Positions 100 to 45,333 of a DNA stretch of 64,000 nucleotides are shown here, one piece after another (positions within the stretch are counted from its first letter, which is position 1; every line of letters starts with the position of its first letter). A model generated the notes under the pieces. It was not told the DNA's origin. It saw only the letters and a program-made list of their open reading frames with translations, and did no database searches. The stretch spans positions 1 to 64,000 of the forward strand of contig JAJZED010000009.1 in NCBI GenBank assembly GCA_021805775.1. Reading direction: 5' to 3'. The translations under genes were made by a program, and so were the position numbers. Source of the stretch: a bacterium. Lineage in GTDB: Bacteria > Vulcanimicrobiota > Vulcanimicrobiia > Vulcanimicrobiales > Vulcanimicrobiaceae.

Positions 100-176
100 T
101 TCTCATCCCATCTACTCGGGATGACAGGGGGCTGCGCGCCCTACTCGGCGTGACAAGGGCTACTCGGCGTTATAAA
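100..176. repeat. Half-units of the dispersed palindromic repeat family
   Basis: Three degenerate copies of the motif TACTCGG(G/C)(A/G)TGACA lie here, at about 113, 142 and 162, between the left edge and the end of leuS. The first is preceded by TCATCCC, which pairs with its GGGATGA. The same motif forms the right half of the full elements in the clusters near 7.0 kb and 33.3 kb. Confidence 0.7.
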
Positions 177-5279: not shown

Positions 5280-6824
5280 TTGAGAATCACTCGCTTGCTT
5301 GCGGGCGCCGTCGCGCTTGCGATCTCACTTCCAGTCGCCGGCCTCGCTGCGTCGGCAAAAGTACCGCCGAAAAAGCCGCCGATGCATGTGCCGGCGCGCT
5401 TCCCCGATTCCATTACCCACGGGAGCGTCGTCGTTCACGGACAGACGATTCATTACACGGCGCGCGCCGGTACGATTACGCTTCATAACCAAGCGAACCA
5501 GCCGACGGCGCGTATCTTCTACGTCGCCTACACGAAGGACGGCGCGCAACCGAACAACCGGCCGGTCACCTTCTTCTACAATGGCGGCCCCGGCAGCTCG
5601 ACGATGTGGCTCCACATGGGTTCCTTCGGGCCGGTCCGAGTTATTTCCGGAAGCGGAACGCTTACCGGCCCACCGCCGTACCGCATCGTTCCCAACGGAT
5701 ACACCTTGCTCGATAAGACCGACGAGGTTTTCATCGATATGCCCGATAGCGGTTTCGGTCGCATCGTCGGCGCGGGAAAGCCGAAGATGTTCTTCGGGGT
5801 CGATCAAGATGCGCGCGCCTTCGCGCAGTTCGTGCAAAACTATATCGGTAAATTCGGGCGTTGGAATTCGCCCAAATATCTCTTCGGCGAAAGCTACGGC
5901 ACGACGCGCGACGCAGCTCTCGCAGCCGACCTTCAACAAGATGGTGTCGGCCTCAACGGCGTTGTTTTTCAATCTTCGATTCTCAACTTCAACCTCGACT
6001 GGAGCGTCAACTTCGGCTACGTTCCGGCAGCGGTCGGCGGCGGCGATTGGGGCTTCGTCCTCTACTTCCCGACCGAGGCGGCGACCGCGTGGTATCACCA
6101 TGCGGTTCCCAACCGCCCCGCGCACCTGCGTCCGTTCCTCGCTCGCGTCGAACGCTTTACGATGGGCCCGTATCTCACCGCCCTCGCCCAAGGCGACGCC
6201 TTACCGCAATCGCAACGTATCGCAATCGCCAACAAAATTCACGAATATACGGGGCTCTCGCTGCAGTATATCCTCAACGCCAACCTTCGCATTCCGTATG
6301 GTCGCTTCGAGAATCAGCTGCTGCGCAACAACGGCAAGATCGTCGGACGCCTCGATTCGCGCTACGAAACCACCACCATCGACGGGAACCAGGCATCGGC
6401 TCCGTGGGACCCGACCGATGCCGCAATCGACGATCCGTTCACGGCGGCGGTCAACCAGTATCTGCGCGTGACGCTGAAATATAACCCGCCGATCCCTTAC
6501 CGGAGCGGCGTGTACAATATTATCGCCAAGAGCGGCGGATGGAACTGGAAGCATAACGGCATGCAACCGACCAACGTGGCTCCCGATATCGCTTTTGCGA
6601 TGACCAACGAACCGAGCATGAAGGTCTTCGTCGCAATGGGATACTACGACTTCGCAACGCCGTATGAAGCGGCGCTCTATACCTTCGAGCACCTCGGCAT
6701 CCCGCCGTCGCTACAACGAAATATCACCTATCGCTACTATCGCGTCGGCCATATGATCTACCTCAACCCGCAGTCCCTGGCGCATTACCAACGCGATCTC
6801 GACGCGTGGTATAGCGCTCCGTAG
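5280..6824 (+). CDS. Secreted serine carboxypeptidase, peptidase family S10-like
   Basis: The 514-residue protein carries a signal peptide (hydrophobic residues about 6-24, cut after an AASA-type site). The S10 family landmarks are in order: the oxyanion-hole segment NGGPGSS near residue 101, the nucleophile motif GESYGT with Ser about 205, Asp about 457 in GYYDFATP, and His about 491 in VGHMIY. The family removes C-terminal amino acids at acidic pH, so this is probably an exported scavenging peptidase. The start is TTG, chosen because TAGGAGG lies eight bases upstream and there is no better ATG before the signal peptide. A strong intrinsic terminator follows 20 bp after the stop. Confidence 0.9.
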   Translation: MRITRLLAGAVALAISLPVAGLAASAKVPPKKPPMHVPARFPDSITHGSVVVHGQTIHYTARAGTITLHNQANQPTARIFYVAYTKDGAQPNNRPVTFFYNGGPGSSTMWLHMGSFGPVRVISGSGTLTGPPPYRIVPNGYTLLDKTDEVFIDMPDSGFGRIVGAGKPKMFFGVDQDARAFAQFVQNYIGKFGRWNSPKYLFGESYGTTRDAALAADLQQDGVGLNGVVFQSSILNFNLDWSVNFGYVPAAVGGGDWGFVLYFPTEAATAWYHHAVPNRPAHLRPFLARVERFTMGPYLTALAQGDALPQSQRIAIANKIHEYTGLSLQYILNANLRIPYGRFENQLLRNNGKIVGRLDSRYETTTIDGNQASAPWDPTDAAIDDPFTAAVNQYLRVTLKYNPPIPYRSGVYNIIAKSGGWNWKHNGMQPTNVAPDIAFAMTNEPSMKVFVAMGYYDFATPYEAALYTFEHLGIPPSLQRNITYRYYRVGHMIYLNPQSLAHYQRDLDAWYSAP

Positions 6825-6843
6825 GAGCAACCGGCACGCCACC

Positions 6844-6882
6844 CGCCGGCACCGCACGTCTCTGCGGTGCCGGCGTTTTTTT
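6844..6882 (+). terminator. Intrinsic terminator of the S10 peptidase gene
   Basis: A perfect 13-bp GC-rich stem (6844-6856 with 6863-6875) encloses a six-base loop and is followed by seven T residues. It begins 19 bp after the peptidase stop codon and reads in the same direction. Confidence 0.9.
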
Positions 6883-6894
6883 ACGCCGAGCAGG

Positions 6895-7245
6895 GCTTGT
6901 CACGCCGAGCAGAGCTTGTCACGCCGAGTAGCTGCCGAAGGCAGCGCATCGAGGCGCACGCAGCTGTCACGCCGAGTAGCTGCCGAAGGCAGCGCATCGA
7001 GGCGCACGCAGCTGTCACGCCGAGTAGGTTGCGAAGCAACCGTATCGAGGCGCACGCAGCTGTCACGCCGAGTAGGTTGCGAAGCAACCGTATCGAGGCG
7101 GATGCGCTCCCTCGATACGCGCTGCGCGCTACTCGGGATGACAACCCGCTACTCGGGATGACAACCCGCTACTCGGGATGACAACCCGCTGCTCGGGATG
7201 ACAACCCGCTGCTCGGGATGGCAACCCACTACTCGGGGCGAGATG
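6895..7245. repeat. Cluster of palindromic dispersed repeats with tandem arrays
   Basis: Four 48-bp tandem units start at 6917, 6965, 7013 and 7061. Each holds a 38-bp palindromic element plus an identical 10-bp linker. Units 1-2 have the stem GCTGCC/GGCAGC around GAA; units 3-4 have GGTTGC/GCAACC. A further full element with a short CGC-rich stem follows at about 7111-7142. Then come five 20-bp half-units (7128-7227) built on TACTCGGGATGACA. Elements in units 3-4 are exact reverse complements of three copies near 33.3-33.6 kb. The cluster fills the convergent gap between the S10 peptidase and the VPS10-like gene. Confidence 0.92.
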
Positions 7246-7266
7246 GCGGCGCCCAGAGGCGCCGCG

Positions 7267-10200
7267 TTAGTGCCCCCGCTCGAGCGAGGCGAGCCGCGCC
7301 AGCGTCTTGGCGAGGATCGCGTCGAGTTTGCGTTTCGCCGTCTGCATGGTCGCAGTGATCCCGGGATCGGGTGCGTTGCGCGGCGCCGCCGCGAACGTTC
7401 CTTGCCCCGATTCCACCGCCGATGCAAGCCCGCCGTACGCACTCGCTAGGAACCCAAGGCTCGAGAAATCGAGCGAGGCTTTCCCGATCGAATCGTCCGG
7501 GCTCGATTTCGGCGGAACGCCGATTACCTGCGTTAGCAACTCGTGTTTTGAAGAGGCATCGAGCTTGCCGCCGTCGAGAAGTCGCTGCGCCGCATATTGC
7601 GCGACGCGGATGCGATGGATCGTCGCATCGAGCGTTTGCGCGAAGGCAAACTGCGCGCGCAGTTCCGCATTGCTGGTATGCGTCCGCGGATCGCGCAACA
7701 ACGTCGCGTTTCGTGCGTACGTCTTTCCGTCGACCTTCAGCACCACGCGGTAGGTGCCCGGCGGAACCATCGGCCCACCCGGGCTTCCCGCGCGGAGATC
7801 CCACGCAAAACGGTGCGTCCCCAGGGAGATTCCCGGGAGCGGCATGGCGCGCAGCCAATACGCCGGAATGTCGACCTTCTGCGGATTCGGCGCGGTCACG
7901 TGCTGGCTCGAACTCCAGCGCCGTAACACCGTTCCCTTCGCGTCGCGAATTTCAAGAACGACCGGCGTCGTCGGTTGCTTCCCGATCGCGTAATCGATCT
8001 GCATGCCGTAGGTTGGATTGTCGAGTTGAGCCTCATCGTATGGAATCGGCGTCTCTTCGTCGTTGTACGGTTTCAAGCGATAGGAAACCGCCGGCGTATA
8101 AAGATATGCCCGTGCGTTCAGACTCGCAGCCGAGATTTCCCGCAGGCGCGCAACGTCGTCCATGATGTAGACGCCGCGACCGTGGGTAGCGATGATGATA
8201 TCGCCATGCTTGACGACGATATCGCGAACCGATGTTACCGGAAGATTCCGCTGAAACGATTCCCAACGATCTCCGTTATCGAACGATATAAACATGCCGC
8301 GCTCGGTGCCGGCGTAGAGCAGGCCGGGGCGGTGCGGATCTTCGCGAACGACGTTCACGAAGTCGTGCGGCGGAATGCCGTTGACGATCTTCGTCCAATG
8401 CTTGCCGCCATCGGTCGTGCGATAGATATACGGCGTTAGATCGTCGAGCCGATGGCGATCGACCGCAACGTACGCAACCTGCGGGTTGAAGTGCGACGCG
8501 GCAATGATGCCGACTTTGCTCCACGGCGTGAGCGCTTTCGGCGTGACGTTCCGCCAGTGTTTGCAGCCGTCGGTCGTGACCCAGAGCTGCCCGTCGTCGG
8601 TTCCCGCCCAAACGATATTCGCGCGAATCGGCGAGGGCGCGATGGCGTAGACGACGCCGCGCCGCTTGAGCCCGATATTATCGGCGAGCGTTGCGGGGTC
8701 GAGATTGGCGGGGTGGTCGTCGCCGTGCGCGCGGGTAAGGTCGGGGCTGACGATGTGCCAGCTATAGCCGAAATTCCGCGTGCGGAAAATTCGTTGCGTA
8801 CCGAAGTAGAGCGTGCGATGGTCGACGCTCGAGAGCGCGAGCGGCAACGTCCACGTGTAGCGCCAAAAATGATGCGGATGCGCCGCCTCGGGGTCGATGT
8901 TCTGCTCCCAGCCCGTCGTCGTATCTTCGATCGTCGGCGGAGCGAGTACGCTCGGCGCAGCGGCGATGACGCGACCGATCTTGCGCGGATCGGGAATGAG
9001 CCAACCGCTCTCGCTTCCCGCATCGACCGGCTGCCAATCGCGCATGCTGAGATGCGCGTATTTACTCCGACTCAATAATGAGAATGCGCCGGAATCTTGC
9101 TGCGAACCGTAGATGTGATACGGAAATGCGTTGTCGACGCTAATGTGATAGACCTGTGCCGTCGGCTGGTTATACCACGAGCTCCAGGTCTTCGCATTAT
9201 CGACGGTAACGACGACGCCTTGGTCGCCGCCGAGCACCATGTGCGTGGGGTCCTGCGGATATATCCAGAGTTGATGATAGTCGTCGCCGCCGGGTTGCCC
9301 TTTGATCGCAATGAAGGTTTTGCCGCCGTCGGTCGAGCGATAGGTTGAGGTATCCATCGTGTAGAGCGTATCGGGGTTCTTCGGGTCGACCGCGAGCTCG
9401 CCGAAGTACCATCCGCGTTTCCAGATACGGATGTCGCCGTCGGTCTTCAACCAATGCGCGCCGCCGTCGTTGGAACGATAGATGCCGCCGTGCGCGCGAT
9501 CGCTATCGACCCGCGCGTAGACGATCTGCGGATCGCTCGGCGCGACCGCGACGCCGATGCGCCCGACGGTGCTCGGAAGCCCGGCGCGTAACTGCGTCCA
9601 ATGCGCGCCGCCGTCGGTGCTTTTGTAGAGCCCCGAACCGGGGCCGTTGCTCGGCGGATAGACGTTCCACGGCGGGCGTCGCGTCTGCCAGAGCGCCGCG
9701 TAGAGCACCTGCGGATTCTGCGGATCCATCGAGAGCGAGATCGCCCCGGTGTTCTCGTTTTTGTAGAGAATTTTTTGCCAGGTTTTCCCGCCGTCGACGC
9801 TCTTGAAAACGCCGCGCTCGGCATTCGGGCCGTATGCGTGTCCGAGTGCCGCGACGTAAACGACGTTCGCATTCTGCGGATCGACGACGATTGCGGCGAT
9901 CTGTCGCGTGTCGCGCAGACCGATATGCGTCCACGTTTTGCCGCCGTCGTGCGAGACGTACATGCCGTTGCCGTAGCCGATATCGCTGCGCATATCGGGC
10001 TCGCCGGTACCGACGTAAATGGTTCGCACCGCGCTCGGCGCGACCGCGATCGCACCGATCGATCCGATATTCTCTTTATCTAAGATCGGTTTCCACGTGC
10101 GGCCGGCGTCCTCGGTCTCCCAGACGCCGCCGTCTACCGCGCCGAAATAATAGTGGTTCGGCTGCCCCGGAACGCCGGTGACGGCGACCGCACGACCGCC

Positions 10201-32190: not shown

Positions 32191-33120
32191 GTGCGTATGA
32201 CCTACCGCTCGCTGAAATTGACCGCTCTTGCCGCCCTTGCGGCCGCTCTTCTCGCCATCGCGCCGCCCGCGCGCGCGGCGGCCCCTTCGGCGACCACCTA
32301 CTACGAGGCGGCGATCGCCGCGATGCAACGGCTGCCGGAGCCTCCGGCCGCGATCTTCACCACGCAATTTCACTCAAACGCTCTTGCCTACTACCTCACC
32401 ACGACGAAGGGCGGGTACACGATCCTCGAGGTCCAGTGGGGAGGCAACGTCGCTGCGCTCGGAAACGAACGCTATCGTACCTGGATGCGAGCGCGCAGCG
32501 ACCGTACGCTCAACGTCGATGCGAAGGGAAAGCACTACTACAGCACCTCACCGGTCTACGTTCCGACATGGCCGGGTGCGTACGATTTCCTCCGCTACGG
32601 TTGGGGCGGCAAAGGGTCGCCGAATAAGGCGGTCCACCCGACGGTGACCCCGCCGCCGGGACTAAAAACGATCGCCGTCGTCTCGGCGATCAGCCCCGGT
32701 GCCTATCACATCGAAGACCGCGGAGCCGCGCTCTGCCCCGATGGTTCGGCGGGGCACGCACTTCACCTCACCGCGCTCTACGATCCCACCGTTCACACGT
32801 TGAGCCGCGTCGTCATCGATGCAAAAACGATGCGCATCTGTTCGTTGCGTTTCAACATCCGTGAATCGATGGTCGCCGTATCGCTCGGCGGATACGTGCA
32901 GATGAACTTCGGCGAGGTCGGCGACTATTGGATGGTCCGCACGTCAAAGATCGAGATTGCTATCCACGCGCTCGGCATTCAAGTCAAACACGGCAGCGCG
33001 ACGATCGCGTATTCGGCGATGACGTTTCCGCCCTCGATCCCGCGCTCGCTGGTGACACCGCCGTCGCCCTCGCCCTCGCCGACAGCCTCGCCGACAGCAT
33101 CGCCGAGGGCATCGCCGTAG
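32191..33120 (+). CDS. Secreted protein, paralogue family A copy 2, with Pro/Ser/Thr tail
   Basis: The 309-residue protein has a signal peptide (LTALAALAAALLAIAPPARA). The mature domain matches copy 1 block for block: PSATTYYEAAIAAMQRLPEPP, PPGLKTIAVVSAISPGAYHI, DRGAALCPDGSAGHALHLTA, ICSLRFNIRESMVAVSLGGY. A C-terminal tail PSPSPSPTASPTASPRASP is encoded by imperfect tandem repeats. The start is GTG at 32191 or ATG at 32197. The stop codon abuts a 24-bp tandem array. Family and function unknown; an exported, probably wall-spanning or surface role is inferred from the tail. Confidence 0.8.
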   Translation: MRMTYRSLKLTALAALAAALLAIAPPARAAAPSATTYYEAAIAAMQRLPEPPAAIFTTQFHSNALAYYLTTTKGGYTILEVQWGGNVAALGNERYRTWMRARSDRTLNVDAKGKHYYSTSPVYVPTWPGAYDFLRYGWGGKGSPNKAVHPTVTPPPGLKTIAVVSAISPGAYHIEDRGAALCPDGSAGHALHLTALYDPTVHTLSRVVIDAKTMRICSLRFNIRESMVAVSLGGYVQMNFGEVGDYWMVRTSKIEIAIHALGIQVKHGSATIAYSAMTFPPSIPRSLVTPPSPSPSPTASPTASPRASP

Positions 33121-33264
33121 CGCCGCTCTGTCAGCCCGAGTAGGCGCCGCTCTGTCAGCCCGAGTAGGCGCCGCTCTGTCAGCTCGAGTAGGCGCCGCTC
33201 TGTCAGCCCGAGTAGGCGCCGCTCTGTCAGCCCGAGTAGGCGCCGCTCTGTCAGCCCGAGTAGG
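33121..33264. repeat. Six tandem 24-bp half-units of the palindromic repeat
   Basis: Units start at 33121, 33145, 33169, 33193, 33217 and 33241. All are identical except for one C-to-T in the third. Each holds TGTCAGCCCGAGTAGGCGCC, the left half of a full element. The array begins on the base after a stop codon and ends in a full palindromic element with the stem GGCGCC-GCA-GGCGCC (about 33263-33277). Confidence 0.95.
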
Positions 33265-33645
33265 CGCCGCAGGCGCCGTATCGAGGGCATCTTCCCGCGC
33301 CTCGATACGGTTGCTTCGCAACCTACTCGGCGTGACAACGCAACTGCCTGCGCGAGCGGAGCCTGCGTGCACCCGACGAGCGCTTAAGCGAGCGGCGAGG
33401 ACCCTGACATTGCTTGTCCGAGCCGCGAGCGTCTAGCGAGGAGCGGTGCAGCGCAGGCGAACGCAAGCGAACGCATCCGCCTCGATACGGTTGCTTCGCA
33501 ACCTACTCGGCGTGACAACGCAACCTACTCGGCGTGACAACGCAACCTACTCGGCATGACAATTGCGCGGCGCCTCGATACGGTTGCTTCGCAACCTACT
33601 CGGCGTGACAAGCGCTACTCGGCGGGACAATTGCGCGGCGCGAAC
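33265..33645. repeat. Second cluster of palindromic dispersed repeats
   Basis: Three exact copies of a 38-bp element start at 33300, 33480 and 33573. Each has the arms CCTCGATACG and TACTCGGCGTGACA around the stem GGTTGC-TTC-GCAACC. Half-units (CAACCTACTCGG(C)(G/A)TGACAA) follow at about 33520-33560 and near 33615. The 140 bp between the first two full copies hold a different GC-rich repeat-like sequence with GAGCG(A/T)GCG-type motifs and no open gene. The cluster fills the gap between the secreted paralogue and the MATE gene. Confidence 0.9.
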
Positions 33646-44220: not shown

Positions 44221-45333
44221 TTAAGGCGCGTTTCCGGCTGGCGTCGCAGACGAAGCTTTTGGGAAAAGCTCGGCGATCGCTGGTTTCATACTTTGCTCGG
44301 CGACGGCAACCGCTTTTGCACCAAAGTTCAGGATTAACAGACTTCCAATGCGCGCATGCGTCTCGGCTTGCCTGCGGATCGTTCCGGCACAGCCCACAAG
44401 CGAGAGGCGCAACGAGGCGAACGAACTTCCGGTGTCTTCAGATTGTTCGATGCGAATCGTTGGAACGATGATGCCGCTAACCTTATAGCTCGTGCAGAGC
44501 CGAGCGGCCCTTGCGATAACGCGAGAGTCGTCTGTAGGCGGCGCGAGCGTGACCGAGATGCCGCTCCGTTTAAGGCGCTTGATGAAGGCGTTGCTGATGG
44601 CGGGCGCTCGAGGATCGGCGATTCCCGGCTGCCCGAATGGAATCACCAGATACGAGTGCCTGCCCAAAGTAGGCGCTAAATTCGTGGTCGGTGAGGGCAA
44701 GCTGGTCGGTGAGGGCAAGCTGGTCGGTGAGGGCAAGCTGGTCGGCTGCGATACCGTAGTGGATATCCCGGCGGCGATGATTTTTCGTACGACGCGTTTT
44801 GCCGCCACGCGGAACGCCGCATCGACGGCAGCGCCGAGATTGCCGACGGAATCAACGCCCGATGGCGCAGCGTCGCCGGTAGCGACCGCACTTGAGTGGA
44901 CGCGTCCGGAACAGCGGATCTCATCCAAACGAAGAGCTGCGTGGGTGGGGTAGCGCAAAATCGTGAGGAAGAATGTGACGGCAAAACGTTTCAGCGTTTG
45001 CTCGTAACGCCCATCTGGGATCAGGAGCCCCACTGTATGGTTCGAGCTACAGAGCTTGGCGGCATCGGCGACGGCACGGAGATGATTCATTGGAGTACCG
45101 ACGATGGCGTTGATTCCCGAAGCTGCGAGATCGCTCGCGATATCTGCGGTTACCGCTGCAGCATGAGGATCGGTGCTGCCTGGCTCTTGGAATGGAACGA
45201 GGAGAAGCTGTGCCTCAGTCGATTTTGGAGTAGGACTTGGTAAGAGGGTGCTTTGCGCCGACGCGAAGCCCGGGATCGAGAGTGTGAAGGCGAACGCGAC
45301 GAAAGCCCAGCGTTGGAGTGCGATACGAAACAT
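44221..45333 (-). CDS. Secreted two-repeat protein of unknown function
   Basis: The 370-residue protein has a signal peptide (residues about 5-27, AFTLSIPGFASAQS). Two homologous halves follow, residues about 42-145 and 227-320: LLLVPFQEPGSTDPHA matches YLVIPFGQPGIADPRA, and RAVADAAKLCSSNHTVGLLI matches VIARAARLCTSYKVSGIIV. Each half has matching Cys residues. The halves are joined by a linker of repeated PTSLPS units encoded by an 18-bp tandem repeat (44687-44744). GAGAGGA supports the chosen ATG. The fold and function are unknown; a stress or carbohydrate-binding exported role is possible. A long structured leader lies upstream. Confidence 0.8.
   Translation of the reverse strand: MFRIALQRWAFVAFAFTLSIPGFASAQSTLLPSPTPKSTEAQLLLVPFQEPGSTDPHAAAVTADIASDLAASGINAIVGTPMNHLRAVADAAKLCSSNHTVGLLIPDGRYEQTLKRFAVTFFLTILRYPTHAALRLDEIRCSGRVHSSAVATGDAAPSGVDSVGNLGAAVDAAFRVAAKRVVRKIIAAGISTTVSQPTSLPSPTSLPSPTSLPSPTTNLAPTLGRHSYLVIPFGQPGIADPRAPAISNAFIKRLKRSGISVTLAPPTDDSRVIARAARLCTSYKVSGIIVPTIRIEQSEDTGSSFASLRLSLVGCAGTIRRQAETHARIGSLLILNFGAKAVAVAEQSMKPAIAELFPKASSATPAGNAP
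44687..44744. repeat. 18-bp tandem repeat encoding the PTSLPS linker
   Basis: Three in-frame copies of GGTGAGGGCAAGCTGGTC (plus a partial) encode the repeated Pro-Thr-Ser-Leu-Pro-Ser linker of the two-repeat secreted protein. Repeat-number change would alter linker length without a frameshift. Confidence 0.85.

Follow-up and report, generated by a model that had tools for sequence, protein, structure and literature searches.

Repeat elements in the window

The window is the whole stretch of DNA that was analysed, 64,000 nucleotides at positions 1 to 64,000 of contig JAJZED010000009.1 (assembly GCA_021805775.1, a member of the Vulcanimicrobiaceae, hereafter the own genome). Downstream of a gene at 5280-6824, and past the T-run terminator of the gene beside it (~6846-6880), Tandem Repeats Finder delimited a tandem array at 6917-7100 with a period of 48, 3.8 copies and 94% matches. 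Four elements, all on the + strand, make up the array. Element 1 (6917..6956) consists of a TGTCA tag, the outer helix CGCC/GGCG, the motif GAGTA, the stem GCTGCC(GAA)GGCAGC and GCATCGA, and element 2 (6965..7004) has the same stem. Element 3 (7013..7052) carries the stem GGTTGC(GAA)GCAACC and GTATCGA, and its stem is shared by element 4 (7061..7100). Around the constant loop GAA, GCTGCC/GGCAGC in units 1-2 is replaced by GGTTGC/GCAACC in units 3-4. An earlier note on this DNA had described four near-identical 48-bp units with a swap of both stem arms; the sequence is as described, except that one base adjoining the stem is swapped as well, the exchanged tract being GCATCGAGG in units 1-2 and GTATCGAGG in units 3-4.

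On the 5' side of element 1 are degenerate 5' half-units, ACGCCGAGCAGGGC and TTGTCACGCCGAGCAGAGC (6883..6916, + strand), and since these flanking units are degenerate, the young age that the note had assigned to the array was not upheld. An inverted element, TGTCATCCCGAGTA, stem GCGC(GCA)GCGC, GTATCGAGGGA, with the outer helix TCCC/GGGA, lies at 7108..7143 on the − strand, and a run of a 20-bp 5' half-unit, TGTCATCCCGAGTAGCGGGT, occupies 7149..7243 on the same strand, its mutations increasing away from the full element. A second cluster of elements was found at 33120-33610. It comprises an array in which 24-bp 5' half-units TGTCAGCCCGAGTAGGCGCCGCTC precede a full element of stem GGCGCC(GCA)GGCGCC (33120..33288, + strand), an inverted full element with the stem GGTTGC(GAA)GCAACC (33298..33337, − strand), a full element with the stem GGTTGC/GCAACC and 22-bp half-units TGTCACGCCGAGTAGGTTGCGT on its 5' side (33478..33562, − strand), and a further inverted full element with the stem GGTTGC(GAA)GCAACC (33571..33610, − strand). 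Two 5' half-elements, TGTCATCCCGAGTAG and TGTCACGCCGAGTAG, lie near the window start (112..155, − strand). A perfect 18-bp tandem repeat of 3.4 copies, TGGTCGGTGAGGGCAAGC, at 44685-44745 is unrelated to the hairpin elements.

Copy number and pairing in the own genome

The own genome was searched with the arm pattern CGAGTAGN{4,30}ATCGAGG, which makes no demand on pairing, and 277 matches were returned, compared with 1 for the reversed control. The assembly is a draft of 28 contigs with N runs within arrays, so copy numbers of long arrays may be off. Full-length analysis was made of 100 of the 277 copies. The inner sequence paired over at least 4 bp in 98 of these, with inner stems of 4-7 bp, and the other two were of a 4-bp stem type with one mismatch. 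Distinct inner sequences numbered 19, and the outer stems included several types, all paired: CGCC/GGCG, GCCC/GGGC, CCCC/GGGG and TCCC/GGGA. Where otherwise perfect stems held a mismatch, it was G.T in 14 cases and C.A in 4, as read on the GAGTA strand. The earlier note had taken the stem for a folding unit that is kept paired, and had named a majority of unpaired copies in a genome-wide arm search as evidence to the contrary; the copies read were paired almost throughout, and the covariation is overwhelming both in the own genome and across phyla.

Covariation of the two helices

Covariation was scored in an ungapped alignment of 50 distinct copies (A1). Pairing was found in 98.0% of pair cells, as against 72.6% after shuffling and 33.7-50.8% with the partner slid, and the covariation score was 0.651 vs. 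0.171. Cells changed on both sides numbered 153 (51 in the shuffled alignment), and two-sided changes were present in 10 of the 12 pairs, including all six inner and all four outer pairs. The invariance of GAGTA/GTATCGA is partly built in, as the copies were found with these motifs as the search key. Both helices vary freely yet stay paired while the unpaired motif is constant, which suggests that cells recognise the folded shape, through an enzyme other than the customary REP transposase; the helices would need only to pair, and so their sequence would be free.

Predicted fold and loop sequences

The predicted DNA fold runs from the outer helix through a step of GA/TC pairs that bears a GA bulge and a GTA/GTA mismatch box, which may contain sheared G.A pairs, to the inner helix and a 3-nt loop. 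Three-nucleotide loops were GNA (N = A, C, G, T) in 15/15 distinct inner sequences of the own genome, 22/23 of the genus and 20/25 of other hosts, and their closing pair was nearly always C-G. Among the distinct inner sequences with 4-nt loops, 9/19 were GNNA and 1/19 GNRA. GNA and GNNA loops on G-C pairs give DNA mini-hairpins of extraordinary stability; GCGAAGC, for one, melts at 78 °C (PMC4686876). As most of the loops, being C(GNA)G or GNNA, are of this stable DNA type, single-stranded DNA is the likelier folding unit, rather than RNA. The excess of G.T over C.A mismatches is compatible with the GAGTA strand folding as either DNA or RNA. Compared with shuffles, the folding energy of the genus hairpins was only moderately better (DNA z about -1 to -1.5), and a copy on an Anaerolineae contig (L122) reached -4.6. 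Elements of six loci gave no match in an Rfam covariance-model search at E ≤ 1.

Distribution across genomes and phyla

Three other genomes of the genus held 119-200 copies, and the rest of the family outside the genus 0-9 by the exact pattern. With a covariance model, all seven genus genomes searched were full of matches, and 21 of 114 other genomes matched, mostly with few copies. One genome of the same family and another genus (G010) gave 53 weaker covariance-model matches (best E 5e-7), suggestive of a divergent form of the element.

When 84,980 species genomes were scanned, the core turned up in at least eight phylum-level groups among the matches listed. Copies with both helices paired occurred, again among the matches listed, in Alpha- and Gammaproteobacteria, Actinomycetota genera, Chloroflexota, Verrucomicrobia, Calditrichia, Deltaproteobacteria, Peribacteraceae and Eremiobacterota, the group names of hosts outside the genus being those of the record titles. 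The pattern GAGTAN{9,33}GTATCGA matched 10-164 times in each of 25 genomes of other lineages (25/25; reversed controls 0-8). On the Anaerolineae contig, three neighbouring copies had 8-bp outer and 6-bp inner stems, all different and all perfect. The architecture common to the lineages is [outer helix]-GAGTA-[inner helix]-GTATCGA-[outer helix]. The array units are members of a family of DNA hairpins that are tiny, apparently mobile and present in hundreds of copies per genome. Spread by phages was considered and set aside: of the pattern matches in 120 viral stretches, six paired both helices by a loose test and none had the canonical short-loop form.

Insertion, turnover and genomic position

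Between two genes that we take from their translated sequences to be mutS and mutL (L390, G000:C6, about 247645-248100), the own genome carries seven 62-bp units. In seven other species the site is intact and empty, the array being present in the own genome only. Each unit contains ATGCCGCAGATT, the mutL start, or a close variant of it, and an intact mutL start closes the array; the repetition of this start in every unit and its intact copy at the array end indicate a duplication of no less than 12 bp of target sequence. At this one clean locus the 12-bp flank duplication could have arisen as a target-site duplication or as the opening step of tandem amplification. DNA repair genes with REP insertions have also been reported elsewhere (PMC3733652). 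At 6824-7267 in the window, orthologous sites of eight related species differed in element content and in stems; downstream of the orthologue of gene 5280-6824 the site is empty in G078, and G080 and G024 have a common left part, the G080 contig ending there. Copies are gained and rebuilt quickly.

By heuristic gene calls, arrays lay between convergent genes in 11 cases, codirectional genes in 8 (one doubtful) and divergent genes in 1. The layout was typically + then − with the tags outward, both orientations occurred within one gap, and the elements had no T run. Orphan 5' halves, from TGTCA to the stem arm, numbered 81, compared with 10 orphan 3' halves, several of which were near-complete or unrelated. 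Half-units lay on the 5' side of the full element, and in 31 arrays their mismatches to the consensus rose from 0.03 at the element, a value partly forced by the search, to 0.55, 0.74 and 0.93 at the successive positions beyond it. This polarity may be the product of slippage at a replication stall caused by the hairpin.

Stem exchange and long-apex variants

Two further arrays in the own genome switch stems internally, from AGCGC to CTGCC with the spacer gcgcttccc unchanged (L167), and from CTGCC to GTTGC with the spacer gatcgg unchanged (L170). The alternative stem types occur at other loci of the own genome as possible donors. In a repeated block of another genome (L246, G048:C37:32500-35500), two neighbouring elements have reciprocally swapped arms, GCGC/GCGGC and GCCGC/GCGC, possibly by recombination or by an assembly junction in the hairpin. 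The stem switches of the three arrays and these swapped arms fit conversion or recombination between copies.

In a long-apex variant, CTTCGACTCGCTTCGCTCGCTCAGG stands in place of the GNA loop (48 matches in the genus; loci L404-L433, and also L159, L180, L246, L256 and L115). All 30 distinct copies read lay inside elements as judged by eye, with both arms exact in 22, and stems varied round the identical apex, pairing over at least 4 bp in 16 of the 22 parsed copies. The possibility that CTTCGACTCGCTTCGCTCGCTCAGG is a separate repeat inserting into the hairpin tip was rejected, as every copy read after a search for it alone lay within elements. A second long-apex type, CCCTCGNCRRGCTCGGGGTAAACTCC, holds the same apical position at L181, L184 and L165:1544.

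Different paired stems round the same apex mean that the two arms can change in concert while the apex stays as it is. One documented route to multi-base compensatory changes and perfect stems in one event is template switching between the arms (PMC8794818). A templated process, as the earlier note had put forward for the stem swap, is supported by the whole stems that switch within arrays of unchanged spacers, the donors elsewhere and the reciprocal arms of L246. Gene conversion, the route the note had named, fits these data but is not the whole story, since the stem varies round an unchanged long apex and the outer helix covaries.

Search for a mobilising enzyme

The note had likened the elements to REPs without a visible RAYT transposase, and the genome check that it called for was run: the Y1 transposase domain (PF01797) had no match in 10 of 10 genus genomes, the own genome and nine others. 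Among the 25 genomes of other lineages, PF01797 matched in 11 and was absent from 14, including the copy-richest (164, 162 and 128 copies); RAYT-like genes exist in some of these hosts. The RAYT model NF047646 gave no match at E ≤ 0.01 in 22 copy-rich genomes, while the controls were detected. At none of 32 Y1 loci was an element the direct neighbour of the Y1 gene; one had an element pair about 1.2 kb away. With no match in the genus, no RAYT in copy-rich genomes and no adjacency, RAYT or another Y1 transposase was rejected as the mobiliser in these genomes. An autonomous copy, in the form of a gene between elements, was not recognised at the loci inspected (L244, L245, L161, L260-L268), which had ordinary-looking or unassigned frames in which no transposase was seen by eye. 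No mobilising protein of any other kind was found among the loci and genomes examined.

Interpretation and alternatives

The reading that we favour, with moderate confidence, is a REP-like family of mobile hairpins that is recognised by its structure and moved by a non-RAYT factor, with local amplification and stem exchange. The working form would be the single-stranded DNA hairpin of a miniature REP-like mobile element. GAGTA and GTATCGA would form its internal loop, in which a GTA/GTA mismatch box and a GA bulge accompany two G-A/T-C pairs, a GNA mini-loop would cap the inner helix, and the unpaired motif would be the recognition mark. A trans-acting factor would insert the hairpin, by copying or moving it, at intergenic sites, most of them gene 3' ends, a position that suits an RNA role as well. 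Once inserted, the hairpin would amplify locally, with tandem units taking flanking DNA along, and 5' half-units would accumulate on its 5' side if polymerase stalled at the hairpin and slipped back. The arms would stay matched if mismatched stems were lost or repaired from the other arm by template switching, and exchange of whole stems between copies would likewise keep them matched.

Several other readings were weighed against this one. We consider it unlikely that the element is a functional RNA, kept paired for its part in a 3'-end hairpin that would stabilise messages or terminate transcription. The position of arrays between convergent (11) or codirectional (8) genes and only once between divergent ones, the excess of G.T over C.A in mismatched stems and the capacity of known REPs to act in RNA (PMC3733652) would agree with it, but the loops obey the DNA rule GNA/GNNA, with GNRA in 1 of 19 four-base loops, the elements stand in both orientations in one gap and lack a T run, the gene next to 6917 has a T-run terminator of its own at about 6846-6880, and Rfam gave no match. 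We regard as improbable that these are ordinary RAYT-mobilised REPs with a transposase that has been lost, works from outside or has diverged beyond detection. PF01797 is missing from all 10 genus genomes and from 14 of 25 other hosts, the copy-richest among them, NF047646 from all 22 genomes searched, and no element directly adjoins the gene at any of 32 Y1 loci; GTAG, which does adjoin the inner hairpin, is internal and not a terminal tag. The abundance, head-to-head pairing and intergenic location are nevertheless REP-like, and some other host genomes have RAYT-like genes.

The pairing could also have arisen with no selection for folding, if template switching (quasi-palindrome correction) kept palindromes perfect and slippage and recombination alone raised the copy number. 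A single event of this kind can yield perfect stems and compensatory changes of several bases (PMC8794818), and half-unit breakpoints near the loop and the reciprocal arms of L246 fit replication or recombination at hairpins. Correction should, however, erase the mismatch box, yet GAGTA//GTATCGA persists between free helices in many lineages, and insertion at new sites and the GNA loop bias are left unexplained, so we hold this account to be improbable too. Pure gene conversion among family members, with pairing unconstrained, seems very unlikely as the source of the stem differences within arrays: in three arrays the stem switches while the spacers stay as they are, and both types of stem are frequent elsewhere, but conversion moves existing stems and explains neither the universal pairing and the cross-phylum covariation of the outer helix nor the differing stems round an identical long apex. 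The draft state of the genomes and the N runs within arrays would suit an artefact of short-read repeat assembly; the same pattern in related genomes and the many paired copies in long-contig genomes of other lineages make this explanation scarcely credible.

Beyond the favoured reading of a structure-recognised mobile hairpin, we tentatively raise the possibility, itself rather doubtful, of a cross-phylum superfamily set by DNA shape, in which a mismatched internal loop between sequence-free helices with GNA caps would be recognised in single-stranded DNA by a non-RAYT recombinase or nuclease. If this were true, that enzyme would also qualify as a candidate mobiliser, so far missing, for the CGTC-type REPs; how REPs spread without a RAYT is a stated open question (PMC3733652). 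Few non-coding repeats of bacteria are as common as the REP-like ones. With its fixed motif of 5 + 7 bases between freely varying helices the family offers a bait for the missing enzyme, copy-rich hosts in culture include Agreia, Naasia and Sphingomonas, and the stem switching is a natural experiment on how palindromes remain paired.

Comparison with known systems

The family works like a REP. No description of the core motif was found in the literature, in a search limited to open papers. Integron attC sites, marked by an IntI integrase and R/L boxes, also fold as single-stranded DNA with variable stems; the constant motif here appears unlike the attC boxes. Quasi-palindrome template-switch mutations (PMC8794818) share the coordinated change of two arms in one event, but they are a mutation mechanism and not an element, and one that would erase the conserved mismatch box.

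The CGTC-tagged REP superfamily of Di Nocera et al. (2013), which includes Neisseria dRS3 and Rickettsia RPE-4/RPE-6, has one stem of 8-9 bp, a loop of 4-5 nt and an unpaired 3-bp tail, mostly CCA; head-to-head pairs predominate, clusters are rare, there is no dedicated transposase, and TGTC and CCTC are tag variants (PMC3733652). The present elements are similarly palindromic and intergenic, with TGTC or CCTC at one end in part of the copies, some head-to-head pairs with tags outward and no associated transposase (neither the host genus nor the genomes richest in copies gave a Y1 or RAYT gene, and none adjoined an element). They differ in having two helices round a fixed internal loop (as a rule 4 bp in the outer helix and 4-7 bp in the inner stem, with a loop of 3-4 nt) and not a continuous stem, in the great diversity of the inner stem within one genome, and in occurring in phyla that are unlisted in PMC3733652. 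The bases after the outer helix vary (CGC, CGG, ATC and others) where CGTC REPs have the CCA tail, and many copies outside the host genus have no tag: it is TGTCA in the host genus and CCTCATCCC in many alphaproteobacterial copies, and is absent in Agreia, Naasia and the Anaerolineae copies. The arrays run + then − with tags outward, yet head-to-tail clusters are frequent and large clusters common.

GTAG-tagged REPs and REPtrons with RAYT are represented by the E. coli REP and S. maltophilia SMAG (PMC3733652, PMC8266576). As in these, a perfect short hairpin of variable stem has GTAG immediately on its 5' side, and the elements are intergenic, of high copy number and found in BIME-like pairs. 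Here, however, GTAG is inside a larger hairpin and not an unpaired terminal tag at the hairpin foot, its last G belonging to the stem (a G-C pair in 46 of 50 copies, and A in one copy), the genomes have no RAYT, and there is a conserved 3' partner, GTATCGA. Since defining features of both groups (the single stem with a 4-5 nt loop and CCA tail in one, the terminal GTAG with RAYT in the other) were looked for and are lacking, the family is filed under neither the CGTC REPs nor the GTAG REPs.
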